Origin: a virus
Length of the DNA: 59,112 nt
Direction: 5' to 3' (one strand)
Virus record (IMG/VR): IMGVR_UViG_3300047564_002154
Location: 1 to 59,112 of that record
The notes beneath the pieces are model-generated. The model saw nothing but the letters and a program-made list of their open reading frames with translations. It ran no database searches and was not told where the DNA came from. Every line of letters starts with the position of its first letter. Position 1 is the first letter of the stretch. Shown here piece by piece: positions 8,571 through 37,870 of the stretch. The translations under genes and the position numbers were made by a program.

Positions 8571-9326
8571 ATGAATATACGCAAAGCCTGGGGTGAGATT
8601 ATATTCTCAGAATATAGATTGTACATGATACAGTTGCAATGGCCATCTGATGGATGGGATGAATACTGTGTTAGATTAGTATTCGCTTTTTGGCGATTCT
8701 ATATTTCCATTAATCTATGGAGAACCAAACCATGGAAAGATTTTGAAACACAAGCGCCGCGTTACGGTGTATCATTTCATGATTCTATTATTTGGCTATC
8801 GTATGGTGCTGACCGATCATTTAATATTAATATGCCATGGAAATGGGAGATCGTAAGGCATGATCTGTTATATCCAAACGGTGAGGTTTATCATAGAAAT
8901 AAATATCCGATGCGCACACCAGCACAAAAGAAACGCGAGATAACCTGGTATGATGTGTTTGAAAAACACAGTAATCGTCAAGATGAAGTTCAAGTTCTTG
9001 TTGCAAAATTTATCACTCTGACGCGGCACACTAAAGATGGTAGAAAACAGATTGCCAAAATTCGTTTGACTGGAGAAGAACGAGAGTGGAGATGGAGATG
9101 GTTTAAATGGTTACCTTGGCCAAACCTAAAGCAACGTGTCGTAAATTGTGATTCTGATGTTGAACTGGGAGAAAGAGCCGGTAGCTGGAAGGGTGGTATG
9201 ATGGGTTGGAGTATTCCATGGGAAGTCTGGGGAAGGGGTATACTCGATCCCAGTATTCCATGGGAAACTGATGACACCATGCAAAGAGCCTTTTGGAAAT
9301 GGTATAAAACATGGGATGGTAATTAA
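8571..9326 (+). CDS. conserved Trp-rich phage protein
   Basis: 251 aa with an unusual Trp content, including EWRWRWFKWLPWP and repeated WSIPWEVW/PSIPWE motifs, and a C-terminal GERAGSWKGG signature seen in a family found in several large phages. GGAGCG precedes the ATG. No enzyme motif, signal peptide or membrane helix. It sits as cargo within the tRNA array; function unknown. Confidence 0.65.
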   Translation: MNIRKAWGEIIFSEYRLYMIQLQWPSDGWDEYCVRLVFAFWRFYISINLWRTKPWKDFETQAPRYGVSFHDSIIWLSYGADRSFNINMPWKWEIVRHDLLYPNGEVYHRNKYPMRTPAQKKREITWYDVFEKHSNRQDEVQVLVAKFITLTRHTKDGRKQIAKIRLTGEEREWRWRWFKWLPWPNLKQRVVNCDSDVELGERAGSWKGGMMGWSIPWEVWGRGILDPSIPWETDDTMQRAFWKWYKTWDGN

Positions 9327-22307: not shown

Positions 22308-22490
22308 TGCGTCATTAGTCCAAGCCTCTATGTCCGATTTTAGTGCATTCTTAGTGCGCTTCCTGTGCGAACCGCTATGTGCGCTATGTGCGAATTTGTG
22401 TGTGCGTTGCCTGTGCGATCCATGTGCGTTACGAGTGCGCGCCTAATGCGTTACGAGTCCGTTATATGTGCGTAGTGTGTGCAATGTGCG
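22293..22490 (+). repeat. low-complexity GTGCG-rich tract
   Basis: About eleven GTGCG pentamers in under 200 bases, with the longer unit TGCGTTACGAGT present twice. No gene; the open frame here is an artefact of the repeated bases. Confidence 0.7.
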
Positions 22491-22812: not shown

Positions 22813-22841
22813 ATTATCTCACACCTTGCAATTAAAGCCAA
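22813..22841 (-). promoter_or_regulatory. inverted copy of the repeated promoter
   Basis: On the minus strand: TTGGCT, spacer TTAATTGCAAGGTGTGA (17 bases), GATAAT, then AGTCTTA. Same core as the rightward array promoters but facing left, giving a divergent pair with the promoter at 22907. Confidence 0.75.
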
Positions 22842-22906
22842 GGCATTTTTGATTGTATTTTTCAATTAATTTGTGGTTTTCGATTGAAAAGTTTTTTGCA
22901 AAGTTG

Positions 22907-22935
22907 TTGCCTTAAATTGCAAAAAGTGAGATAAT
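22907..22935 (+). promoter_or_regulatory. array promoter
   Basis: TTGCCT-17-GATAAT with spacer core TAAATTGCAAA; first rightward member of the promoter array, class 1 leader (GATGAATGAGAAAGGAAAC). Confidence 0.85.
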
Positions 22936-22965
22936 AGTTTCACGATGAATGAGAAAGGAAACGAA

Positions 22966-23169
22966 ATGAAAAGCCAGCAAATTAAAAACAAAGTTTATTT
23001 GGCTCAAGAATACCTGGAAAAAGCCAATCAATTAATCATTAGCGCGTTCGCCGAAAATAAAGAATCACTGGCTATTGAATATTCAATCTACGAAATAATT
23101 GATCGGCTGGATACTCATGTGGCTGAAGTTTGTGCTACCCTTTACGCCGAAGATTTTCCGTCGGAATAA
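22966..23169 (+). CDS. small helical hypothetical protein
   Basis: 67 aa. ATG 22966 follows GAAAGGAAACGAA; the in-frame ATG at 22945 is almost at the predicted RNA start and is part of the shared leader. Helical, acidic (IYEIIDRLDTHVAEV). No family recognised. Confidence 0.62.
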   Translation: MKSQQIKNKVYLAQEYLEKANQLIISAFAENKESLAIEYSIYEIIDRLDTHVAEVCATLYAEDFPSE

Positions 23170-23174
23170 ACTTG

Positions 23175-23203
23175 TTGCCTTTAATTGCAAACTCAGGCAT
23201 AAT
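23175..23203 (+). promoter_or_regulatory. array promoter
   Basis: TTGCCT-17-CATAAT with the TTAATTGCAAA core; begins 5 bases after the previous stop codon. Confidence 0.85.
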
Positions 23204-23239
23204 AGTGGTTATGATGAATGATAAACGAAAGGGAACGAA

Positions 23240-23467
23240 ATGATTACTCGTGAATTTCTGAAATCCGTGAATTTTCGTGTTATGAATGAGTTTGACCGGC
23301 AGGGATTCTCTGGCGCTATGAGCCCAGTTGCTTTGATCGGTGAAATCGACGACTATCTCGTGATCGTTGATGGTCCGTATTGCGAAGTTTATGGTCCAGC
23401 CACCGACGACGATGATGTGTCAGAGCCGATTGATACCTGCGACGATATCCGTGACCTGCCGTTTTGA
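23240..23467 (+). CDS. small acidic hypothetical protein
   Basis: 75 aa behind AAAGGGAACGAA. Acidic C-terminus (ATDDDDVSEPIDTCDD) and a central beta stretch (YLVIVDGPYCEVYG). Sole gene of its cassette. No family recognised. Confidence 0.6.
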   Translation: MITREFLKSVNFRVMNEFDRQGFSGAMSPVALIGEIDDYLVIVDGPYCEVYGPATDDDDVSEPIDTCDDIRDLPF

Positions 23468-23480
23468 ACGTAGAAAGTTG

Positions 23481-23509
23481 TTGCCTTAAATTGCAAAAAG
23501 CGGGATAAT
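23481..23509 (+). promoter_or_regulatory. array promoter
   Basis: TTGCCT-17-GATAAT, spacer TAAATTGCAAAAAGCGG. Confidence 0.85.
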
Positions 23510-23533
23510 AGCTGTACTTGATAGGAGAACACG

Positions 23534-23704
23534 ATGAACGACGTTGAACTGTTTTCACTCAAAAATCCGCTTTTTCGGGAAGTTTTTATCGATATCCTAA
23601 AAAACCTCAGCCTGGACGGAGAAACTGCTGAAATATCTATTGCTGCGTTAAAACTTCAAGTGGCGATTCAACATTTTGAAAGATCAAAAACTTGTTGTCT
23701 TTAA
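23534..23704 (+). CDS. 56-aa hypothetical protein
   Basis: Starts MNDVELFSLK behind GGAG; helical. Its last codons and TAA stop are read from the -35 and spacer of the next array promoter (CTTTAA of TTGTCTTTAATT), so gene end and promoter are fused. Confidence 0.6.
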   Translation: MNDVELFSLKNPLFREVFIDILKNLSLDGETAEISIAALKLQVAIQHFERSKTCCL

Positions 23705-23723
23705 TTGCAAAGTACGCGATAAT
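23695..23723 (+). promoter_or_regulatory. array promoter
   Basis: TTGTCT-17-GATAAT with spacer TTAATTGCAAAGTACGC; overlaps the end of the 56-aa gene. Confidence 0.83.
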
Positions 23724-23754
23724 TAGTCTACACTGAATCGAAAAAGGAAACAAA

Positions 23755-23952
23755 ATGAACTACCCAAATATGTCCTACTGCATGTGTGAAAACACTGTTT
23801 TGGCTCTGCGTCAAGTGATGAGCGCGATGGAAGAATCTGGTTCATTTACTGAGTTTGTTGCCGAGATGAGTCGGTCGGAAAAGCTAGCATTCCAGGAATT
23901 GTTTAACCTTTGCGAGTCTTTTATTAATCTGACTGAGGACATGGACGAATGA
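23755..23952 (+). CDS. small hypothetical protein
   Basis: 65 aa behind AAAAAGGAAACAAA. Helical and acidic (MSAMEESGSFTEFVAEMSRSE), with two Cys near the N-terminus. ATGA overlap with the next gene. Confidence 0.6.
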   Translation: MNYPNMSYCMCENTVLALRQVMSAMEESGSFTEFVAEMSRSEKLAFQELFNLCESFINLTEDMDE

Positions 23953-24176
23953 TTCGCAGAGTGAAGAAATATGAAGGTACTGTCTACTACTCCAGTACTG
24001 GATCGAGTCACACTAAACTATATGAATTCACCCAAGAACAGGCTGATACAGTGGGTGGAGTGTTGCACGAAGATGGGTTGAGCATCGTGTTGGCTGAAAA
24101 ACTATGTGAAAAGTGGAATCGTAGAGGACAGCACGTGGGTATCCGATACACTTACAGAATTCCTTTTGACGTGTAG
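23949..24176 (+). CDS. small basic hypothetical protein
   Basis: 75 aa, second gene of its cassette. KYEGTVYYSSTG and YEFTQEQADTVGG suggest a small alpha/beta fold. No family recognised. Confidence 0.6.
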   Translation: MIRRVKKYEGTVYYSSTGSSHTKLYEFTQEQADTVGGVLHEDGLSIVLAEKLCEKWNRRGQHVGIRYTYRIPFDV

Positions 24177-24193
24177 GAATAACCACAAACTTG

Positions 24194-24222
24194 TTGCCTT
24201 TAATTGCAAAGTACGCGATAAT
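24194..24222 (+). promoter_or_regulatory. array promoter
   Basis: TTGCCT-17-GATAAT, spacer TTAATTGCAAAGTACGC, class 1 leader. Confidence 0.87.
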
Positions 24223-24252
24223 AGTCTCACGATGAATGAGAAAGGAAACAAA

Positions 24253-24468
24253 ATGGACGATCGAATCCGAGAGCTTGCTTTGCAATATGGTGGGAAAACC
24301 GGCAATTCTGTTTTAATGAATGCTGAATTGTTTGAAGAATTTGCCGAGTTGATTGTTCAGCGCTGCGGATACTATGCTGATGTGTTTGAATCGTTGGGGT
24401 GCCCCATGGATATGGACCCGACTGAAACTAAACCAAGCGATTACATCAAGAAAATGCTAGAGAGATGA
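24253..24468 (+). CDS. FAELIVREC-family protein, member 1
   Basis: 71 aa: MDDRIRELALQYG, a variable middle, FEEFAELIVQRCGYYADVFESLG and a C-terminal TKPSDYIKKMLER. It belongs to the ten-member family in this window, and its YYADxFExLG insertion is shared only with the member at 35798. Function unknown. AAAGGAAACAAA leader. Confidence 0.68.
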   Translation: MDDRIRELALQYGGKTGNSVLMNAELFEEFAELIVQRCGYYADVFESLGCPMDMDPTETKPSDYIKKMLER

Positions 24469-24608
24469 CCAAATATTACATCCACGTCCCAGGTTGGACA
24501 CACTCCATGACTGCCTACGGTATGGACAAACGCGATGCGCTGAATCGTTTCAAACACCAGCACGGCATATCCCGCATGCCTCGTGGATACGGGATCTGGG
24601 TAGGCTAA
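24465..24608 (+). CDS. 47-aa conserved phage microprotein
   Basis: ATGA-coupled to the gene before. MTKYYIHVPGWTHSMTAYGM then DALNRFKHQHGISRMPRGYG; I recall this GM..RxALNRF...RLPR pattern as a recurrent phage microprotein. Function unknown. Confidence 0.6.
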   Translation: MTKYYIHVPGWTHSMTAYGMDKRDALNRFKHQHGISRMPRGYGIWVG

Positions 24609-24625
24609 ACAACACGAGAACCTTG

Positions 24626-24654
24626 TTGCCTTTAATTGCAAACTGCGCGATAAT
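24626..24654 (+). promoter_or_regulatory. array promoter
   Basis: TTGCCT-17-GATAAT, spacer TTAATTGCAAACTGCGC, class 2 leader (GTCTCATACGATAAGG). Confidence 0.87.
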
Positions 24655-24683
24655 AGTCTCATACGATAAGGAAAGGTGCTGAT

Positions 24684-25406
24684 ATGAAACTCTTGAGCGC
24701 TGGCAATCCGAAGGTGATGAAAGGTGAGAAGAAAGGTTACCTGTCTTTCGTTCTCCACTTGGCACCTGCTGACCTGTCTGGTAAGAATACCTGCCCGAAA
24801 GCCACCGAAGGGTGCAAGAAAGCATGCCTGAACACTGCCGGACGTGGTGGCATGTTCAAGAAAGGTGAGACGACAAACACGATCCAGCAAGCACGTATCC
24901 GCAAGACTAAATACTTTTTCGAGAATCGCGAGCAATTCCTTGCAGACCTTGAAAACGACATCCGTCTCGGCAGCAAGCAAGCGCAGAAGAAGGGAATGAT
25001 CCCTGCGTTCCGTCTGAATGGCACTTCGGACATCTCTTGGGAGAAGTATGGGATCATTGAGAAGTTTCCTGACGTGCAATTCTACGACTATACCAAAATT
25101 CTAGGTCGTAAAGTGGCGCATCTCCCTAACTACCACCTGACCTTCTCCGCTGCTGATGGTAATGATGCTGACGTTGCAGCTGCACTCCAAGCCGGAATGA
25201 ATGTGGCGACTGTGTTTGGTCTGAAAAAGAGTGAGCCAATGCCTGAAACATACAATGGACGCGCTGTTTTTAATGGAGATGAGAGCGACCTGCGATTCTT
25301 AGACCCCAAAGGCGTGGTAGTTGGACTCTACGCCAAAGGAAAAGCCAAGAAAGACACATCAGGATTCGTCAAGTATCCTACTATTTCAATCAAATTGGCA
25401 GCGTGA
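24684..25406 (+). CDS. GP88-family phage protein
   Basis: 240 aa. CPKATEGCKKACLNTAGRG (three Cys) near residues 35-54, then KTKYFFENREQFL, PAFRLNGTSDISWE, FYDYTKILGRK and GLYAKGKAK. This is the pattern of the GP88 family (named for mycobacteriophage L5 gene 88), found in many phages. The Cys cluster suggests metal or Fe-S binding; no activity is established. Own array promoter. Confidence 0.78.
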   Translation: MKLLSAGNPKVMKGEKKGYLSFVLHLAPADLSGKNTCPKATEGCKKACLNTAGRGGMFKKGETTNTIQQARIRKTKYFFENREQFLADLENDIRLGSKQAQKKGMIPAFRLNGTSDISWEKYGIIEKFPDVQFYDYTKILGRKVAHLPNYHLTFSAADGNDADVAAALQAGMNVATVFGLKKSEPMPETYNGRAVFNGDESDLRFLDPKGVVVGLYAKGKAKKDTSGFVKYPTISIKLAA

Positions 25407-25428
25407 TTGCCAGAAATTGAAATATTTG

Positions 25429-25457
25429 TTGCCTTTAATTGCAAATTCCGGGATAAT
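25429..25457 (+). promoter_or_regulatory. array promoter
   Basis: TTGCCT-17-GATAAT, spacer TTAATTGCAAATTCCGG, leader related to class 1. Confidence 0.86.
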
Positions 25458-25486
25458 AGTCTCATGATGAATCGGAGGGCAACAAA

Positions 25487-25606
25487 ATGGAATTTAAGAC
25501 TCTCTCGACTACTGTGCTCTGCCCACTATGTGGTGAGAAACACAGTCTGGCTAAGTGCCCAAGATGGAACTGGGAAACAAAATACACTGCTTGGAGGCTA
25601 AAATGA
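25487..25606 (+). CDS. 39-aa zinc-knuckle-like microprotein
   Basis: Behind CGGAGGG. LCPLCGEKHSLAKCPRWNW has the spacing of a zinc knuckle (C-x2-C-x3-H-x4-C). Overlaps the NinX-like start by 4 bases. Probably binds nucleic acid; inferred from the motif only. Confidence 0.6.
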   Translation: MEFKTLSTTVLCPLCGEKHSLAKCPRWNWETKYTAWRLK

Positions 25607-25974
25607 GAGTCAAGACTTCCAATTTGTCTGGTCGTGCGTTGGATTGGGCAGTAGCATACGCTTATTATGGTGATGGAGTCGTGAAACTGGACCACGGTTT
25701 CTTGATTATGCAGCCATCGCGGTATATCGGGCGCAATCCGATACATTCTAGAATGTATTCTCCATCTGCGCGGTGGACCCAGGGTGGACCGATCATCGAA
25801 TCAGAAAGAATTGACGTATTTTCCACTGCAGATGGCACTAGGTGGTGCGCTCAATCAGACAGACGTGTTTTTACTGCGTATGGAAACTCTCCACTTGTTG
25901 CCGCCATGCGCTGTTACGTCGCCTCTCGCCTGGGCGATGAAATGGAAGTGCCAGACGAACTGTTAGCCGCTTAA
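25603..25974 (+). CDS. NinX-like DUF2591 protein, second copy
   Basis: 123 aa. ALDWAVAYAYY, RWTQGGPIIESERIDVF and SPLVAAMRCYVASRLGDEMEVPDELL match the NinX family and the copy at 2752. TTGGAGG site just before the ATG. Confidence 0.75.
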   Translation: MRVKTSNLSGRALDWAVAYAYYGDGVVKLDHGFLIMQPSRYIGRNPIHSRMYSPSARWTQGGPIIESERIDVFSTADGTRWCAQSDRRVFTAYGNSPLVAAMRCYVASRLGDEMEVPDELLAA

Positions 25975-25991
25975 AATCATAAGGAACTATC

Positions 25992-26315
25992 ATGGCAAAT
26001 TCTCCTCGCCTCCCTGATTTTGATACTCTAGCCAGACTGTATCGTGAAGACCCTGAAGCATTCGAAACCTTCCGTACCACTTTCCTCCAAGAAGTAGTGG
26101 AATCCTCTCCAGAGGAATATCGCCCTGGATTGCGCCTATTGCTGCAGCGTATTGAGGAACAGCGTAGCACGGCAGAAACACCAATGGAGGCATTGATCTT
26201 CGCCATGAGAATGATGCGCGAATCCCTCCGGCAGCTGCGAGAAGGATGGCAAGATGCCCACTACGCTGTCGCCGGTCTACAGACAACTATCCTCATCGAG
26301 AAACTGAAACACTGA
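25992..26315 (+). CDS. DUF3135-family protein
   Basis: 107 aa with LPDFDTLARLYREDPEAFE, RPGLRLLLQRIEEQR and TPMEALIFAMRMM, the signature of DUF3135, a small helical family usually found in gammaproteobacterial chromosomes. AAGGAA site. Its presence suggests capture from a host of that kind; role unknown. Confidence 0.75.
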   Translation: MANSPRLPDFDTLARLYREDPEAFETFRTTFLQEVVESSPEEYRPGLRLLLQRIEEQRSTAETPMEALIFAMRMMRESLRQLREGWQDAHYAVAGLQTTILIEKLKH

Positions 26316-26340
26316 CATAGAATCTCCTCGCAGAAACTTG

Positions 26341-26369
26341 TTGTCTTTAATTGCAAACTCAGGCATAAT
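26341..26369 (+). promoter_or_regulatory. array promoter
   Basis: TTGTCT-17-CATAAT, spacer TTAATTGCAAACTCAGG. Confidence 0.84.
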
Positions 26370-26401
26370 AGCTGTATTGAGTTGATGCCGAGGAGATTCT
26401 G

Positions 26402-26551
26402 ATGCCGTATACACTTATCACTTCCGCAGGAAAGGTGATGACTTTCTACATTCTGGGTCTTGCCGAGACGTATCGGACGATCCATGGTGGTGTCATAGTG
26501 GATAAGACCATCCTCCAAAAAGATTCTCTTCAAGAATCTGCTTGCCTTTAA
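26402..26551 (+). CDS. 49-aa hypothetical protein
   Basis: MPYTLITSAGKVMTFYILGL start behind GAGGAG. As at 23534 and 30718, the stop TAA is provided by the spacer of the next array promoter. No family recognised. Confidence 0.58.
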   Translation: MPYTLITSAGKVMTFYILGLAETYRTIHGGVIVDKTILQKDSLQESACL

Positions 26552-26570
26552 TTGCAAATTACGCGATAAT
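26542..26570 (+). promoter_or_regulatory. array promoter
   Basis: TTGCCT-17-GATAAT, spacer TTAATTGCAAATTACGC; overlaps the 49-aa gene end and drives the AAA ATPase gene. Confidence 0.86.
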
Positions 26571-26591
26571 ATACGTATTGGTGATGAGGAG

Positions 26592-27497
26592 ATGATGATG
26601 ACACAAGTGACTTCTATTTCGTTCGACGCAAAAACCGGCAACTATTTCGCTAAAGTCGGTACCAAAACGATTAAGTCTTATGATAAGAAATATGTCGAGC
26701 GTAAGCTAAAATCAATGGTAGGTGATATCGAGACTGCCGTCGCTGCTGCCACCGAAAAGAGTAACCGTTACGGCATCAATGACCGTTTCGGCTTTGTTGA
26801 GAAACTGGTAACCATGGTTGCTAGTGGCGTGCAACCATCTGCCGTGATCACTGGCGAGGGTGGACTTGGCAAGACTTATACTGTTACCAAGACCCTGGAA
26901 GCTAACGGCTACAAAGACATTAGCGACTTGGCTGACTTCCAAGTTGGTGCTGTCATCAATACTCGCAAGTGTTTCACGATGGTGAAAGGTTTCTCTACTG
27001 CCAAAGGTTTGTATCGCACTCTCTTCGAAAACAACAAGTCGATCATTGTGTTCGATGACTGCGATGCCGTGCTCAAGGATCCCGTTGCTCTCAACCTGCT
27101 GAAAGGCGCTCTCGATTCCTACGGCAAACGTATCATCAGCTGGAATGCTGACATGCGTGATGAAGACCTGCCGCGTTCCTTTAACTTCGAAGGTCGTGTC
27201 ATCTTCATCTCCAACATGGATCAAGATAAAATCGACCAAGCCATCCGTTCACGTTCAATGATGATCGATCTCAGCATGTCGTTCACTCAAAAGATCGACC
27301 GTATGGAATTTATCGCCACTTCGGATGAATTCCTCCCTGAGTATGACCTGCAGGCTAAAAAAGACGCTCTGAACCTGATTCGTGAGGTTGGTTCTGACGC
27401 GAAGGAAATCTCTCTCCGCACCTTGATCTCTATCACCAAGATCCGCGCTGCGAACAAAGATTGGCGCGATCTGGCTGAATACATGCTGACGAATTAA
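26592..27497 (+). CDS. AAA+ ATPase, phage type
   Basis: About 300 aa. Walker A GEGGLGKT (residues 88-95), Walker B SIIVFDDCDAV (about 147-157), sensor 1 VIFISNMD and an arginine-bearing AIRSRSMMIDL. The N-terminal 80 residues are a charged partner-binding region. Three ATG codons in a row follow GAGGAG; the third (26598) is best spaced. A lone AAA protein in an accessory cassette; its remodelling target is unknown. Confidence 0.82.
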   Translation: MMMTQVTSISFDAKTGNYFAKVGTKTIKSYDKKYVERKLKSMVGDIETAVAAATEKSNRYGINDRFGFVEKLVTMVASGVQPSAVITGEGGLGKTYTVTKTLEANGYKDISDLADFQVGAVINTRKCFTMVKGFSTAKGLYRTLFENNKSIIVFDDCDAVLKDPVALNLLKGALDSYGKRIISWNADMRDEDLPRSFNFEGRVIFISNMDQDKIDQAIRSRSMMIDLSMSFTQKIDRMEFIATSDEFLPEYDLQAKKDALNLIREVGSDAKEISLRTLISITKIRAANKDWRDLAEYMLTN

Positions 27498-27519
27498 TTT
27501 CGGCTCATCCAAATACTTG

Positions 27520-27548
27520 TTGCCTTTAATTGCAAACCCAGGCATAAT
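27520..27548 (+). promoter_or_regulatory. array promoter
   Basis: TTGCCT-17-CATAAT, spacer TTAATTGCAAACCCAGG, class 2 leader. Confidence 0.87.
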
Positions 27549-27573
27549 AGTCTCATACGATAGGGAGATGATT

Positions 27574-27744
27574 ATGTATGATGTTTACCTTTACGATGGA
27601 GATACTGGCGAATTGGTCAAAATTGACCGTGGTCATAACAAGTATAAAGGTATTGCCATGGACTGGCACAATCAGGGATTTTCAGTAAAAGTTGTTGATA
27701 CTTTCGATGGCGTGATTGTCTATACTCTGGAGTGTCCACCTTGA
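27574..27744 (+). CDS. 56-aa hypothetical protein
   Basis: MYDVYLYDGDTGELVKIDRG at the start, beta-rich, behind AGGGAGATGATT. Sole gene of its cassette. No family recognised. Confidence 0.6.
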   Translation: MYDVYLYDGDTGELVKIDRGHNKYKGIAMDWHNQGFSVKVVDTFDGVIVYTLECPP

Positions 27745-27758
27745 CGCACAGAAACTTG

Positions 27759-27787
27759 TTGCCTTTAATTGCAAAGTACGCGATAAT
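27759..27787 (+). promoter_or_regulatory. array promoter
   Basis: TTGCCT-17-GATAAT, spacer TTAATTGCAAAGTACGC, class 2 leader. Confidence 0.87.
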
Positions 27788-27812
27788 AGTCTCATACGAT
27801 AAGGAGATGATT

Positions 27813-28001
27813 ATGAAAGCACGGGTTGATGGTGGTTTTGTTAGTGTTGGTGATTCAGTGTGCTTCAAAAGTGGTTACGAACAATGTGGTCGAGTAGTGA
27901 AAATCAAACGTTCGAATTTCGGTGGTGGGTTTGACTTGGTGATTGAAAATCGTTCTGGTGACCTCATCTTACGACCTGCCAGCGAGTGCTGGTTGGAATA
28001 A
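27813..28001 (+). CDS. 62-aa hypothetical protein
   Basis: Behind AAGGAGATGATT. Reads like a small SH3/KOW-type barrel (GGFVSVGDSVCFKSG, CGRVVKIKRSNFGGG). Sole gene of its cassette. Confidence 0.6.
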   Translation: MKARVDGGFVSVGDSVCFKSGYEQCGRVVKIKRSNFGGGFDLVIENRSGDLILRPASECWLE

Positions 28002-28015
28002 CCATACGAAACTTG

Positions 28016-28044
28016 TTGCCTTTAATTGCAAAGTACGCGATAAT
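28016..28044 (+). promoter_or_regulatory. array promoter
   Basis: TTGCCT-17-GATAAT, spacer TTAATTGCAAAGTACGC, class 1 leader. Confidence 0.87.
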
Positions 28045-28074
28045 AGTCTCATGATGAATGAGAAAGGAAACAAA

Positions 28075-28215
28075 ATGACCTTTACTTTTTACACTTATGA
28101 TCGTTCTGGTAGAGACATTATCGTTAAAATCGACGCGGAGGATGAAGATCAGGCATGGGATAAATTCGAAAAATATTACCCACTACATTATGTAGACCAA
28201 ATGATTCGCGGATAA
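28075..28215 (+). CDS. 46-aa protein, paralogue of 30718
   Basis: MTFTFYTYDRSGRDIIVKID, then AEDEDQAWDKFEKYYP. The gene at 30718 has the same plan (KEVVVNVDAEDVDQAWELFEEKYP), so these are paralogues in separate cassettes. Function unknown. Confidence 0.62.
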   Translation: MTFTFYTYDRSGRDIIVKIDAEDEDQAWDKFEKYYPLHYVDQMIRG

Positions 28216-28227
28216 GAAATAAACTTG

Positions 28228-28256
28228 TTGCCTTTAATTGCAAATTAAGCGATAAT
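28228..28256 (+). promoter_or_regulatory. array promoter
   Basis: TTGCCT-17-GATAAT, spacer TTAATTGCAAATTAAGC, class 1 leader. Confidence 0.87.
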
Positions 28257-28286
28257 AGTCTCATGATGAATGAGAAAGGAAACAAA

Positions 28287-28469
28287 ATGAATGCTCGCGA
28301 CTCTCTGAAGACTCTGGTGAAAACCCTCCGAGAATCTAATGATGCTGCATTTACTCTCGGATACCTAGAATCGATGACTGCAGGTATTATTGAGGGTCTG
28401 CCGAAGACTCAACAAAAACGAATCATCTCTGAAATTGAATCCCACATCAATACGCGTAAAGGTAAATGA
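28287..28469 (+). CDS. conserved small phage protein
   Basis: 60 aa with LRESNDAAFTLGYLESMTAGIIEGLP, a helical pattern I recall from many phages. AAAGGAAACAAA leader. ATGA overlap with the next gene. Confidence 0.65.
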   Translation: MNARDSLKTLVKTLRESNDAAFTLGYLESMTAGIIEGLPKTQQKRIISEIESHINTRKGK

Positions 28470-28672
28470 TCATGACTAACGAACAAGCAAAACGTATCTC
28501 CATCATTTATAACAAGTCGCCCGTAGCCAAGTCTGTCGTCCGGGCAGAGTCTGAATCCCAAGTCACTCTGTTTCTTAAGACAGGTGGAGTTATCCAAGAA
28601 TGCAAACCTTCGCGTAGGAAGAATCGTCCGACCATGTCGTCCAAGGTTACTCGCGTCACTAGAGTTTCATAA
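28466..28672 (+). CDS. small basic hypothetical protein
   Basis: 68 aa; a second Met at 28472 may be the start. Helix, beta stretch (SQVTLFLKTGGVIQECK) and a basic Ser/Arg-rich tail. No family recognised. Confidence 0.58.
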   Translation: MIMTNEQAKRISIIYNKSPVAKSVVRAESESQVTLFLKTGGVIQECKPSRRKNRPTMSSKVTRVTRVS

Positions 28673-28679
28673 AAACTTG

Positions 28680-28708
28680 TTGCCTTTAATTGCAAACTCA
28701 GGCATAAT
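28680..28708 (+). promoter_or_regulatory. array promoter
   Basis: TTGCCT-17-CATAAT, spacer TTAATTGCAAACTCAGG, class 3 leader (TACTACAGTTGATTGAGAT). Confidence 0.87.
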
Positions 28709-28742
28709 TACTACAGTTGATTGAGATTATAGGAGAAATGTG

Positions 28743-28922
28743 ATGATCAAAGTGATGACGAACAGTAACGGATCTGGTGATTGGATCCATATTAAGGAAG
28801 GCGATCTAACCATTTTCGAAGGTCACCGAGTTGGAGTACATGATCTAGTATTTCTCCTAGAGCGATACGCCAATGTCATGCTGATAGAACTAACTGATGA
28901 AGAAATGGAAGTATGGTCATGA
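28743..28922 (+). CDS. conserved small phage protein
   Basis: 59 aa; ATG 28743 sits 7 bases after AGGAGAAA. Segments WIHIKEGDLTIFEGHRVG and LTDEEMEVW. ATGA overlap with the next gene. Confidence 0.6.
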   Translation: MIKVMTNSNGSGDWIHIKEGDLTIFEGHRVGVHDLVFLLERYANVMLIELTDEEMEVWS

Positions 28923-29062
28923 TGGACCAGTTTAGAGTTTGTTATATTCCTGGTGGTATGGGATTGAGCCATAGTGCGTGGTGGTTATGCGAAAGAAAAG
29001 TGGTTCAAGGTGTATGGATGGATTGGCGAATCAAACAATTGAGAGTGAGTGATTATAAATGA
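28919..29062 (+). CDS. 47-aa hypothetical protein
   Basis: Starts MMDQFRVCYIPGGMG; Trp-rich (SAWWLCERK, VWMDWRIKQL). Coupled by ATGA on both sides. No family recognised. Confidence 0.55.
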   Translation: MMDQFRVCYIPGGMGLSHSAWWLCERKVVQGVWMDWRIKQLRVSDYK

Positions 29063-29226
29063 AAGGTTTGATCCGGTTCTTCGTAGGTCTGGTTATGATT
29101 ATGGGTATAGCTGGCGGGATAGATTCGTCTACAGATATGGAGTTGATAACCTTAATTGGATGTGCTGCAGTTGCTCTGATGATACTGGTATCTGGAATTA
29201 ACGCGATGAGGAAAGAAAATGAATAG
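29059..29226 (+). CDS. small membrane protein, two TM helices
   Basis: 55 aa with hydrophobic segments at about 3-20 and 28-47. ATGA coupled to the gene before and overlapping the next by 8 bases. Confidence 0.58.
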   Translation: MKGLIRFFVGLVMIMGIAGGIDSSTDMELITLIGCAAVALMILVSGINAMRKENE

Positions 29227-29458
29227 AGACGACATTCTCCGCATGGCGCGGGAACAGGGACTTCCAGAAACTGAAGTTGAAGGTGTATTCATAGTTAATT
29301 CCGACGATCTGGGGCGATTGCTCGCCGCCGAGCGCGCCGAGCGCGAATGGGTCAGCCTGACGGATGAAGAAACTGACTATTGGATTGGTAGCAATAGCAC
29401 AAAGAAAGCATTATGCAGAGCCATTGGAGCTGCACTGAAGGAGAAGAATAATGGATGA
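29219..29458 (+). CDS. LTDEE...EKN family protein, member 1
   Basis: 79 aa: variable N-terminus, then REWVSLTDEETDYWIG and ALCRAIGAALKEKNNG. This WxSLTDEE...RAIxAxLKEKN plan is common in phages and prophages, with unknown function. GAGGAAAG site. Members 2 and 3 follow directly. Confidence 0.65.
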   Translation: MNRDDILRMAREQGLPETEVEGVFIVNSDDLGRLLAAERAEREWVSLTDEETDYWIGSNSTKKALCRAIGAALKEKNNG

Positions 29459-29663
29459 CCGAATTCTTGTCGACGCTAATGGACGCAAGTACATCATGAG
29501 AGAACCACAACTCCATCCACATCTACGCGAATGGATCAGCCTGACGGATGAGGATATCGCGCAGGCTTGTGGTTTTGGCGAACACACAACTACCTCACTT
29601 CAACACATGTTGATCGCAATTGCTCGTGCCATCGAAGCAAAGTGTAAGGACAAGAACACATGA
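29451..29663 (+). CDS. LTDEE...EKN family protein, member 2
   Basis: 70 aa: REWISLTDEDIAQACGFG and IARAIEAKCKDKNT. Overlaps both neighbours by 4-8 bases; part of a local duplication. Confidence 0.65.
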   Translation: MDDRILVDANGRKYIMREPQLHPHLREWISLTDEDIAQACGFGEHTTTSLQHMLIAIARAIEAKCKDKNT

Positions 29664-29962
29664 TTAATGAGAAAGAAAATTCTGTGCTTCTCATCGCTGG
29701 GTTCACGCAACGAGAGATCAATACACAGAAGCAAAAATTTCACAACTTGTTTCGGATTGAGCCGTGGCTTGTGCCCATGCGTAGGCATGGAGAATGTGTT
29801 GGGCTGACGGATGATGATATTGAGGACGAATGGGAGCGGATTACAGGGCATAGCATATATGGCGGCAGTCGTAGCGAAGGACGAACTATGTATTTGTCTC
29901 CAGATGAAGTATTTGAATTCGCCCGAGCCATCGAAGCCAAGAGCAAGGAAAAGAACACATAA
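29660..29962 (+). CDS. LTDEE...EKN family protein, member 3
   Basis: 100 aa; longer N-terminus, then CVGLTDDDIEDEWERITGHSI and FARAIEAKSKEKNT. The spacer between the two motifs is lengthened. Confidence 0.65.
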   Translation: MINEKENSVLLIAGFTQREINTQKQKFHNLFRIEPWLVPMRRHGECVGLTDDDIEDEWERITGHSIYGGSRSEGRTMYLSPDEVFEFARAIEAKSKEKNT

Positions 29963-29979
29963 ACAAGATAACATAGTTG

Positions 29980-30008
29980 TTGCCTTTAATTGCAATCACA
30001 TGTATAAT
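29980..30008 (+). promoter_or_regulatory. array promoter
   Basis: TTGCCT-17-TATAAT, spacer TTAATTGCAATCACATG, class 3 leader. Confidence 0.88.
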
Positions 30009-30042
30009 TACTACAGTTGATTGAGATTATGAGGAGAACGAA

Positions 30043-30378
30043 ATGACTGACCGCGAACTACTAGAACTGGCTGCTAAGGCAATCGGGATTGATGGTCTAC
30101 CATTCCTTGACAACCAGTATTGTCAAGGTGCATTGAGGTGCGGATATTGGGATGATCTGAACGAATCCTGCTGGAACCCACTCACCGATGACGGCGATGC
30201 GTTTCGGCTGGCAGTGAAGTTGAATATGGAGCTTGTTGTTCCAGGGAGTGGGAAGGACGTATACGCCGGTCGGCTTTTGCTGGATGCTTTTGAGCCAGTT
30301 AACGGCGACCCCTACGCAGCCACTCGCCGCGCCATCGTTAGAGCCGCTGCCCAGATTGGAAAGGAAAAGAACCAATGA
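30043..30378 (+). CDS. conserved phage protein with WNPLTDDGDA motif
   Basis: 111 aa: LLELAAKAIGIDG, WNPLTDDGDAFRLAVKLNM and TRRAIVRAAAQIGKEKN. A very common family in enterobacterial prophages and large phages; function unknown. Distantly like the LTDEE family in its first and last motifs. AGGAGAACGAA site. Confidence 0.72.
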   Translation: MTDRELLELAAKAIGIDGLPFLDNQYCQGALRCGYWDDLNESCWNPLTDDGDAFRLAVKLNMELVVPGSGKDVYAGRLLLDAFEPVNGDPYAATRRAIVRAAAQIGKEKNQ

Positions 30379-30635
30379 ACCACGACACTATTATGCAACT
30401 AGCACGTGATGCAGCCGGAGGCATGCTCTCGCACGATGCAGAAGGATTCTGTAGCCTGACTGGACCAGAAATTGTTCGCTTCGCCGAGTTGCTCGTCAAG
30501 AAATGCATTAAAGTGATTGATGACTCTACTCCTCTCTATTCTGCAGAGGATCAACAAGAAGATTTCTGTCAAGGAAAGCTGAATGGATATCAAGAAGCCA
30601 TTCTAGGTGTGAAAGAACACTTCGGAGTTGAATAA
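30375..30635 (+). CDS. FAELIVREC-family protein, member 2
   Basis: 86 aa: NHDTIMQLARDAAGG, VRFAELLVKKCIKVID, C-terminal VKEHFGVE. ATGA coupled to the previous gene. Confidence 0.68.
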   Translation: MNHDTIMQLARDAAGGMLSHDAEGFCSLTGPEIVRFAELLVKKCIKVIDDSTPLYSAEDQQEDFCQGKLNGYQEAILGVKEHFGVE

Positions 30636-30654
30636 AAATATTTGCAAATACTTG

Positions 30655-30683
30655 TTGCCCTTAATCGCAATCACAGGCATAAT
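30655..30683 (+). promoter_or_regulatory. array promoter
   Basis: TTGCCC-17-CATAAT, spacer TTAATCGCAATCACAGG, class 3 leader; slightly diverged. Confidence 0.82.
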
Positions 30684-30717
30684 TACTACAGTTGATTAAG
30701 ATTATGAGGAGAACGAA

Positions 30718-30885
30718 ATGACTGAACTGACTTTTACCTTTAATGCCCTTAATTCCCTCGGTAAAGAAGTTGTTGTTAACGTTGACGCCGAAGATGTTGA
30801 TCAGGCATGGGAGCTTTTCGAAGAAAAGTATCCGAAGCTAGTGTGGTCGGCTCGGTTGAACACTCCAAATACTTCTTGGCTTTAA
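30718..30885 (+). CDS. 55-aa protein, paralogue of 28075
   Basis: TFTFNALNSLGKEVVVNVD then EDVDQAWELFEEKYPK, as in the 46-aa protein at 28075, with a longer tail. Its TAA stop lies in the spacer of the next promoter. GGAGAACGAA site. Confidence 0.62.
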   Translation: MTELTFTFNALNSLGKEVVVNVDAEDVDQAWELFEEKYPKLVWSARLNTPNTSWL

Positions 30886-30904
30886 TTGCAATTTCCGTCA
30901 TAAT
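30876..30904 (+). promoter_or_regulatory. array promoter
   Basis: TTGGCT-17-CATAAT, spacer TTAATTGCAATTTCCGT, class 3 leader; last close copy of the array. Confidence 0.82.
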
Positions 30905-30938
30905 TACTACAGTTGATTAAGATTATGAGGAGAATGAA

Positions 30939-31139
30939 ATGAAAGTTTATTCTGTGTTGCGCGCTGTTCCATACTCTGGTGATGAGTTGCTGGGAGTGTT
31001 TGGAGATCGTGAGCAAGCCGTTGAGTTTATCCAGAAGTTTGAAGATGAATTCCATTACTACGACTTCGGCGTGTTGGCTTCTGAGTTGGGAGAACAAATA
31101 GTAGACGTCTACTCACAGACAGAATGGATTGTACAATAA
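30939..31139 (+). CDS. small hypothetical protein
   Basis: 66 aa: MKVYSVLRAVPYSGDELLGV, then a helix DREQAVEFIQKFED, as in small phage proteins of the YSVxxxxxxGxEELxGVF type. GGAGAATGAA site. Confidence 0.6.
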   Translation: MKVYSVLRAVPYSGDELLGVFGDREQAVEFIQKFEDEFHYYDFGVLASELGEQIVDVYSQTEWIVQ

Positions 31140-31140
31140 A

Positions 31141-31446
31141 ATGAACAAACATACACCTGGACCGTTGCAGTATGCCATGATCGTCGGTGGCACTACGGCA
31201 TTCATCATGGAAGATGACGGCACGACCGTCGCAGAGATCAGCACTGTAGAGAATTCGACAGGACATAGCCAACTAGAAGCCAACGTTCGATTGTTCGCCG
31301 CTGCTCCCGATCTTCTGGAGGCACTCAATCGCGTTATGTCTTGGATCGACAATTGGTCGCCTGAATTCACCTACGACAATGAGTGGCCACAAGACAGAGA
31401 CGCTACCAGAGCAGCCATCGCCAAAGCAACAAGGGACATACAGTAA
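31141..31446 (+). CDS. HTPGP-family phage protein
   Basis: 101 aa: NKHTPGPLQYAMIVGG at the N-terminus, EANVRLFAAAPDLLEALNRV in the middle. This HTPGPW...ARLIAAAPELLEAL family is among the commonest accessory proteins of phages; function unknown. ATG 31141 is two bases after the previous stop. Confidence 0.75.
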   Translation: MNKHTPGPLQYAMIVGGTTAFIMEDDGTTVAEISTVENSTGHSQLEANVRLFAAAPDLLEALNRVMSWIDNWSPEFTYDNEWPQDRDATRAAIAKATRDIQ

Positions 31447-31455
31447 GGTACAGAT

Positions 31456-31836
31456 ATGGGCACTAATTACTACGTAGCAGAGAACCACTGCAAATGTTGT
31501 GACCGATACGACGAGACATACCACATCGGTAAGTCTTCTTATGGATGGTCATTCTCGTTTCAAGGATATAAACTAGAGGAACTAGTATCCTGGCAGGCAT
31601 GGAAAGACTTCCTCAAAGACAAGATGATTAAGGACGAGCATGGTATTACTATTCCATATGATGAATTCGTCACTCTCATAGAAGGTGTTAAATCGCCATC
31701 ATTCGTAAGAGCAGATGGACATAAGAACCTACAGCATAACGAACAGGGTAGCCTCGATAAGCAAGGATGGTTTGATCCCGAGTATGACTGGGATGATGGA
31801 GAAGGCTACTCGTTTACGTCTTGGGAGTTTAGTTAA
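31456..31836 (+). CDS. conserved phage protein, MGTNYY family
   Basis: 126 aa: MGTNYYVAENHCKCCDRYDE with a CxCC cluster and His residues, then HIGKSSYGWSFSFQGY. Known from many phages and some bacteria; the Cys/His set suggests metal binding. Function unknown. Confidence 0.7.
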   Translation: MGTNYYVAENHCKCCDRYDETYHIGKSSYGWSFSFQGYKLEELVSWQAWKDFLKDKMIKDEHGITIPYDEFVTLIEGVKSPSFVRADGHKNLQHNEQGSLDKQGWFDPEYDWDDGEGYSFTSWEFS

Positions 31837-37360: not shown

Positions 37361-37689
37361 ACACATATACACCTGATAAATGGCTAATTATTAAAATAAC
37401 ACAAGACGAGGCAATCCACTATCGTGTTTTTGGATGCTGGTTTGGTGGGTTCGCTGGTAGAGACAGTTGGAAAATGAATTCTGGCGTCACTAAGGTGAGT
37501 TTTGACGACAACTTTTATAAATTTGAAGGTTCTAGCGGATCTGTCTATATGTGTCACAAAGATACTTACGGAGCGAATATGTATGGTCGCGGTGTGATTA
37601 ATGATATGATTCACGCTGCATCAAAACAGGGTGTGATTATTGAAATTCTGGAAGAAGACACTAATTTTTTGAGTCTACATTATGAATGA
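37357..37689 (+). CDS. conserved phage protein
   Basis: 110 aa: YTPDKWLIIKITQDEAIHYR, GCWFGGFAGRDSWKMNSGV and FEGSSGSVYMCH. This pattern is known to me from T4-like phages, unannotated. Beta-rich. ATGA coupled to the gene before. Confidence 0.66.
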   Translation: MNTYTPDKWLIIKITQDEAIHYRVFGCWFGGFAGRDSWKMNSGVTKVSFDDNFYKFEGSSGSVYMCHKDTYGANMYGRGVINDMIHAASKQGVIIEILEEDTNFLSLHYE

Positions 37690-37870
37690 CTGGACTGTTT
37701 GGTTGGAAGAGGATGCAGAAACGGGGGATCTGGTGATGCCGATTCCCCCGGAACTATTGGCACAGCTTGGATGGAACGTTGGAGAAACGCTAATTTGGCA
37801 ACCCATGAAAGATGGTACATTTATATTGAGGAAAAAACAAAATGGAACACCTGAAAATTCCACTGAGTGA
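37682..37870 (+). CDS. AbrB/MazE-like small protein
   Basis: 62 aa: GDLVMPIPPELLAQLGWNVGETLIW, the swapped-hairpin layout of SpoVT/AbrB-type DNA-binding domains, with a short tail. Could be a transcription regulator or antitoxin relative; no toxin gene is adjacent. Confidence 0.62.
   Translation: MNDWTVWLEEDAETGDLVMPIPPELLAQLGWNVGETLIWQPMKDGTFILRKKQNGTPENSTE

Follow-up and report, generated by a model that had tools for sequence, protein, structure and literature searches.

Early-type promoters with a near-invariant spacer repeated through a small-gene island of a T4-superfamily phage fragment

The window analyzed here is the full length of a virus record of 59,112 bases (IMGVR_UViG_3300047564_002154). 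The element in question is a promoter-like sequence repeated between 22.8 and 30.9 kb, where an initial annotation had described about 18 near-identical promoters, one per small-gene cassette. The element was found 17 times in forward orientation and once divergently, far above chance. It is quite probable that the array forms the early-transcription front of the hyperplastic region of a T4-superfamily phage, built of mobile promoter-leader-gene cassettes whose promoter spacer is fixed by function. Mobile early-type promoter cassettes are a known kind of element in T4-like phages; the form found here is new in having no terminators and a frozen spacer.

The 16-mer TTGCCTTTAATTGCAA, searched with up to three mismatches, occurred 20 times in the window, compared with 1.4 times in shuffled sequences (maximum of 100 shuffles, 5). 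The 17 forward copies and the reverse copy lay within 22826-30891, in agreement with the annotated coordinates, and were concentrated in one 8-kb island of the 59-kb fragment; a lone, weaker similar site (2 mismatches) was located outside it, at 1583. The full motif reads TTGCCTTTAATTGCAA-N7-[G/C]ATAAT. The 17-nt spacing to [GC]ATAAT given in the initial annotation was reproduced, NATAAT standing at this distance in 17/17 forward copies, with a first base of G in 10, C in 6 and T in 1. Several stand-alone promoter-like sites of the window have TATAAT, while the -10 element begins with G or C in 16/17 array copies. A generic consensus promoter scan scored 46 promoter-like hits, compared with 38 in shuffled sequence; because this barely exceeds the shuffles, the array signal lies in the shared extended sequence and not in the quality of the sigma70 consensus.

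The copies, with the genes that each is predicted to drive, are as follows.

22813..22841, minus strand: divergent promoter copy, TTGGCTTTAATTGCAA-GGTGTGA-GATAAT; no convincing gene behind it
22907..22942, plus strand: array promoter 1, TTGCCTTAAATTGCAA, -10 GATAAT, predicted +1 A; gene 22966-23169
23175..23210, plus strand: array promoter 2; gene 23240-23467 (gene A, homologues in the loci of 9 relatives)
23481..23516, plus strand: array promoter 3; gene 23534-23704, whose stop is a TAA within promoter 4
23695..23730, plus strand: array promoter 4; genes 23755-23952 and 23949-24176
24194..24229, plus strand: array promoter 5; genes 24253-24468 and 24465-24608
24626..24661, plus strand: array promoter 6; GP88 gene 24684-25406
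25429..25464, plus strand: array promoter 7; genes 25487-25606 (39-aa CxxC protein), 25603-25974 (NinX) and 25992-26315 (DUF3135)
26341..26376, plus strand: array promoter 8; gene 26402-26551 (gene C), with its stop within promoter 9
26521..26577, plus strand: array promoter 9 (box at 26542), stem-loop AGATTC...GAATCT just upstream; AAA ATPase gene 26592-27497
27520..27555, plus strand: array promoter 10; gene 27574-27744
27759..27794, plus strand: array promoter 11; gene 27813-28001 (gene E)
28016..28051, plus strand: array promoter 12; gene 28075-28215
28228..28263, plus strand: array promoter 13; genes 28287-28469 (gene F) and 28466-28672
28680..28715, plus strand: array promoter 14; six genes in 28743-29962, including a small hydrophobic-protein gene, 29059-29226 (TM)
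29980..30015, plus strand: array promoter 15, the sole TATAAT -10; genes 30043-30378 and 30375-30635
30655..30690, plus strand: array promoter 16, TTGCCCTTAATCGCAA; gene 30718-30885, with its stop within promoter 17
30876..30911, plus strand: array promoter 17, TTGGCTTTAATTGCAA; gene 30939-31139 and onward to 31836
22966..31836, plus strand: small-gene accessory island that the array serves

The copies mark the junctions between cassettes. Thirteen of the 17 begin 6-26 nt past the upstream stop codon and three overlap it, while the first (22907) lies 42 nt past the open reading frame assumed to be upstream. Three upstream genes end at a TAA within the promoter box (CTTTAA; 23702-23704, 26549-26551 and 30883-30885), and the box thus doubles as a source of stop codons where cassettes join. 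Small multi-gene cassettes were found as annotated, except that the range is one to six genes instead of one to five, with one or two in most. The diverse gene content was likewise recovered with Pfam (GP88, 1.6e-42; NinX, 6.5e-19; DUF3135, 2.2e-22), the match of the AAA ATPase being barely above the cut-off.

Variation among the 17 forward copies was followed column by column, position 0 being the first T of TTGCCT. Mean heterozygosity was 0.70 upstream of -9, 0.25 at -9 to -1 and 0.046 at 0-15. It was 0.52 at 16-20, 0.11 at 21, 0.56 at 22-23 and 0.00 at 24-28, followed by 0.54 at 29-33 and 0.26 at 34-35. In promoter numbering, the copies display an A-rich -42/-40 stretch (A at -42 in 17/17), G-36 in 15/17, TTG at -35 in 17/17, G-14, and an invariant ATAAT at -11 to -7 preceded by a variable -12. 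At the predicted start, a pyrimidine occupies -1 in 17/17 copies and A occupies +1 in 16/17.

For T4-like phages, the early-promoter consensus is A-rich from -40 to -44, with G at -36 and conserved A-11 and T-7, and -12 is variable in the early promoters of RB49 and Aeh1 (PMC1524935). Judged by their sequence, the array copies look like T4-type early promoters of the host sigma70 kind, and the existence of such a promoter set in the window is well supported. By analogy, they would be expected to fire early.

Families resembling gp32, gp59, the late coactivator (gp33) and DsbA are encoded in the window together with 23 tRNAs, and on these grounds it was assigned to the T4 superfamily; an Rfam scan of the window matched tRNAs alone. 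Since the record has no end repeats, it is probably a fragment. Using the AAA ATPase (26592-27497), 62 related viral loci were recruited, several of them on contigs of 160-171 kb, and the late coactivator was present in 9/9 genomes tested. No near match was obtained in a DNA-level search of the 24-kb island region against 50,697 phage records. In a collection scan, 19 other viral stretches carried the array pattern, with one or two exact copies apiece; a bacterial assembly (L149, a Natronincola metagenome-assembled genome) gave a single exact match, which looks incidental.

The initial annotation had further proposed that cassettes are gained, lost or shuffled at promoter boundaries, and this was supported by the comparison with relatives, in which gene order was not fixed. 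The shared genes are arranged A-GP88-C-AAA-E-F-TM in the window, A-AAA-GP88-F-TM in genome G004, GP88-A-TM-AAA in locus L044 and E-A-GP88-AAA in locus L014. Most island genes had no homologue in the neighbourhoods of the 62 loci. A promoter was found directly upstream of orthologues of AAA in 40/57 loci, of GP88 in 6/7 and of gene A in 7/9, compared with 9% of random positions.

One exchange could be followed in detail. In L048 a 258-bp cassette has a promoter on either side, and at the corresponding place locus L069 has a single promoter. The left flank of the L069 promoter matches that of the upstream L048 promoter at 136/150 positions (alternative, 37/150), and its right flank matches that of the downstream one at 145/151 (alternative, 31/151); one cassette was therefore gained or lost through a crossover inside the promoter. 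When all related pairs were taken together, indel edges on the right-hand side fell at a promoter in both genomes in 16/245 cases, a four-fold excess over the 1.6% of random aligned positions.

The window copies themselves are mosaic, the spacer type GTACGC being paired with different leader types and the CTCAGG/CCCAGG type likewise. Two genes, 28075-28215 (promoter 12) and 30718-30885 (promoter 16), have a common 74-nt stretch, 73% identical, and look like paralogues; their position behind different leader types is as expected from a re-pairing of promoters and genes.

Segment duplication as the sole cause of the promoter similarity was not seen. The repeated unit comprises the promoter and leader only, and duplication fails because the flank upstream of -9 and the coding sequences are dissimilar (heterozygosity 0.70 on both sides). 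With one promoter per cassette and mobile small genes, the region corresponds to the phage accessory (hyperplastic) island that had been annotated, and its genes may have a role in host takeover.

The most unusual property of the array is its spacer. In the first ten spacer bases, the copies differ pairwise by 0.34 in the window, compared with 7.4 in T4 and RB49 in the same assay and 3.4-7.7 within relatives, the unusual uniformity being limited to the window array. Two elements recur among the relatives. TTAATT directly after the -35 element is enriched in G033, G036, G041, G044, G004 and the window, whereas TTGCA, mostly at position 5 or 9-10 from the start of the -35 element, is enriched in G003, G006, G008, G009, G045, G004 and the window. 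TTAATT and TTGCAA, the latter a 6-bp palindrome in itself, thus occur together in the window and G004, where they overlap as TTAATTGCAA.

The inverted repeat TTGC-N8-GCAA, annotated as a possible operator, did not hold up as a conserved unit. It is near-fixed in the window, but relatives keep TTAATT or TTGCA elements instead; in them the distance of GCAA from the -35 TTG varies, and several lack GCAA. Most likely, TTAATTGCAA is fixed by a function in initiation, as an extra recognition element for the host RNA polymerase or for a host or phage factor acting with it.

The annotated alternative, that the box is simply a recombination handle, or else a trace of recent copying, with no function beyond homology, is very unlikely and already largely refuted. 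The mosaic copies, the crossover inside a promoter in relatives and the three upstream genes ending at the TAA of the box are all compatible with it. As a whole explanation it fails on the bases between the two invariant blocks: positions 16-20 and 22-23 are nearly randomised, at heterozygosity 0.52-0.56, and hence the copies are not recent and it is function that maintains both blocks. In addition, promoters of this type stand ahead of orthologues in diverged phages. Concerted evolution across the lineage, with the boxes of each genome made uniform among themselves, was rejected as well, orthologous promoters between genomes differing by 3.27/10 and promoters within a genome by 4.32. Readings of the box as a sigma54 or an FNR/CRP-like site were dropped, as the spacings do not fit.

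A dedicated phage or host regulator, either an early shut-off repressor or an activator, could also bind the spacer box and unite the cassettes in one regulon, with recombination as a side effect; this is possible, although we regard it as doubtful. The near-invariance of the box (0.34/10), as opposed to the unconserved spacer of T4 and RB49 (7.4/10), is in its favour, as is the room that the weak -35 and -10 elements leave for an activator. Spacer TTGCA was observed 14 times in G009, 10 in G006, 12 in G008 and 8 in G003 (expected 1.0, 1.0, 1.6 and 1.0, respectively), and was not enriched in G033 (1 vs 1.2), G041 (2 vs 1.2), G044 (0) and G036 (0). Such clade specificity is suggestive of a trans factor. 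Relatives, however, have not retained the 16-bp inverted repeat, and TTGCA starts in them at position 5, 9, 10 or 12, among others. A small, crude phyletic profile of the genomes compared yielded ten families, several of them probably spurious reading frames, and no DNA-binding-looking gene that tracks TTGCA. MotA was also absent from the relatives (T4 positive control, 7e-71).

A 62-aa protein with an AbrB/MazE-like DNA-binding fold, encoded at 37682-37870 and conserved through the lineage, would be a candidate for such a regulator. As the cognate factor it was set aside as non-discriminating, being present in genomes both with and without the TTGCA element. A related-locus search with this protein as query retrieved nothing.

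A more speculative version, which we consider somewhat less likely still, holds that TTAATT and TTGCAA are two separate, clade-specific spacer recognition elements, joined here and read by an undescribed phage or host factor that switches the whole array on or off in place of the MotA/AsiA logic, which these phages seem to lack.

It is extremely improbable that the copies are T4-style middle promoters, in which a MotA-like activator box takes the place of the -35 element. Near -30, TTGCCTTTA has a superficial likeness to the MotA box TGCTTTA. The -35 TTG and the 17-nt spacing are nevertheless kept, and the box would sit 14 nt from the -10 element, compared with the 12+/-1 nt that a MotA box requires (PMC2988021). 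With the same positive control, MotA was absent from the window and from six relatives of 160-171 kb; AsiA was not found in a search that had no positive control.

Stem-loops set the window array apart. Promoter-early stem-loops (PeSLs) are mobile regulatory cassettes of T4-like phages, for example RB49/phi1 (PMC4503421, PMC5931544). In relatives of the window, the promoter is frequently preceded at close range by an AACCC...GGGTT hairpin; upstream of AAA the motif occurred in 25/57 loci, compared with 1% at random positions, and a strong hairpin was found upstream of several RB49 control promoters. In the window, a clear adjacent stem-loop was present at one of the 17 promoters, that of the AAA gene, and terminator-like sites numbered 8 against 11.2 in shuffles. 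The array is PeSL-like without the terminator half, and read-through with additive expression along the array would therefore be expected.

Several points weigh against the interpretation as mobile early-promoter cassettes. TTGCCT and [GC]ATAAT fit the E. coli consensus worse than several stand-alone promoter-like sites of the window; such weak -35 and -10 elements would be unexpected in a strong early promoter, and they leave room for an activator. The +1 positions and the early timing are predictions. Most indel edges among relatives do not lie at a recognised promoter, and left-hand edges (6/245) gave no clear excess. The crossover was demonstrated in relatives and not in the window, as no close relative of the latter was found. 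The mosaic signal of the window copies (p=0.0002) came from a PHI-type test that takes sites as otherwise exchangeable, and the hairpins of the window array, no better than random (best -4.1 vs -4.3 kcal/mol), were scored by folding short stretches.

In the mechanism proposed for the mobile cassettes, each copy would bring together a host-sigma70-type early promoter, a leader and a ribosome-binding site of its own and, fused to these, a small gene or a few of them; each unit would therefore work at any site of insertion. Through homologous recombination, the copies would allow cassettes to be deleted, inserted and reordered and would give rise to hybrid promoters, as seen in relatives; for the window itself, the mosaic copies and permuted gene order suggest the same. 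Transcripts would run through the cassettes in the absence of terminators, and expression would add up along the array.

Further observations concern the left border of the array and the remainder of the window. At 22354-22490, ten GTGCG motifs occur within about 140 nt (37 on the given strand window-wide), and nine are found at the equivalent position of G004 (L089, 14850-15110); the cluster may represent origin-like iterons or some other regulatory site. Between 22500 and 22907, about 400 nt contain no convincing gene, with TCAATCG-like repeats and the leftward promoter copy (22841-22813), from which a transcript would be produced. An Acb3-like CBASS inhibitor is encoded at 8571-9326 (Pfam E 1e-21); eight related genomes, 160-171 kb in size, yielded no counterpart.

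These results extend mobile promoter cassettes to an uncultured T4-type lineage for which the phage database searched contained no close match. They also resolve one crossover inside a promoter to a single cassette. A clean question is isolated, namely what freezes a spacer that T4 and RB49 leave free to vary, and whether an unrecognised transcription factor lies behind the clade-specific elements TTGCAA and TTAATT. In such contigs, the promoter sequence alone could flag accessory genes, including candidate anti-defence or takeover genes.

With the early promoters of T4, RB49, RB43, Aeh1 and 44RR (PMC1524935, PMC2988021), the array shares the A-rich -40 region, G-36, TTG at -35, the conserved -11 and -7, the variable -12 and the genome-specific drift of the consensus. 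It differs from them in fixing TTAATTGCAA after the -35 element, in a -12 that is almost never T, and in the packing of the copies into one 8-kb island.

The start-associated sequences (SAS) and extended SAS (ESAS) of Cluster K mycobacteriophages (PMC3203893) are likewise repeated ahead of many unrelated genes, their consensus differs between phage subclusters, and the ESAS contains an imperfect inverted repeat. In contrast, the ESAS consists of a 17-bp inverted repeat whose spacer varies, standing beside the GGGATAGGAGCCC start-associated sequence; both the sequence and the phages are unrelated to those described here.

PeSLs were reportedly described by Arbiol 2010 and Comeau 2014. In common with them, the array has sigma70-like early-type promoters repeated through a T4-superfamily accessory region (17 copies here), with recombination between copies shuffling small-gene modules, and the form with a promoter and an upstream stem-loop is present in many relatives of the window. 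The window array differs in being without stem-loops, apart from the one clear adjacent case in 17, and in its near-invariant spacer, which aligned RB49 promoters do not conserve.

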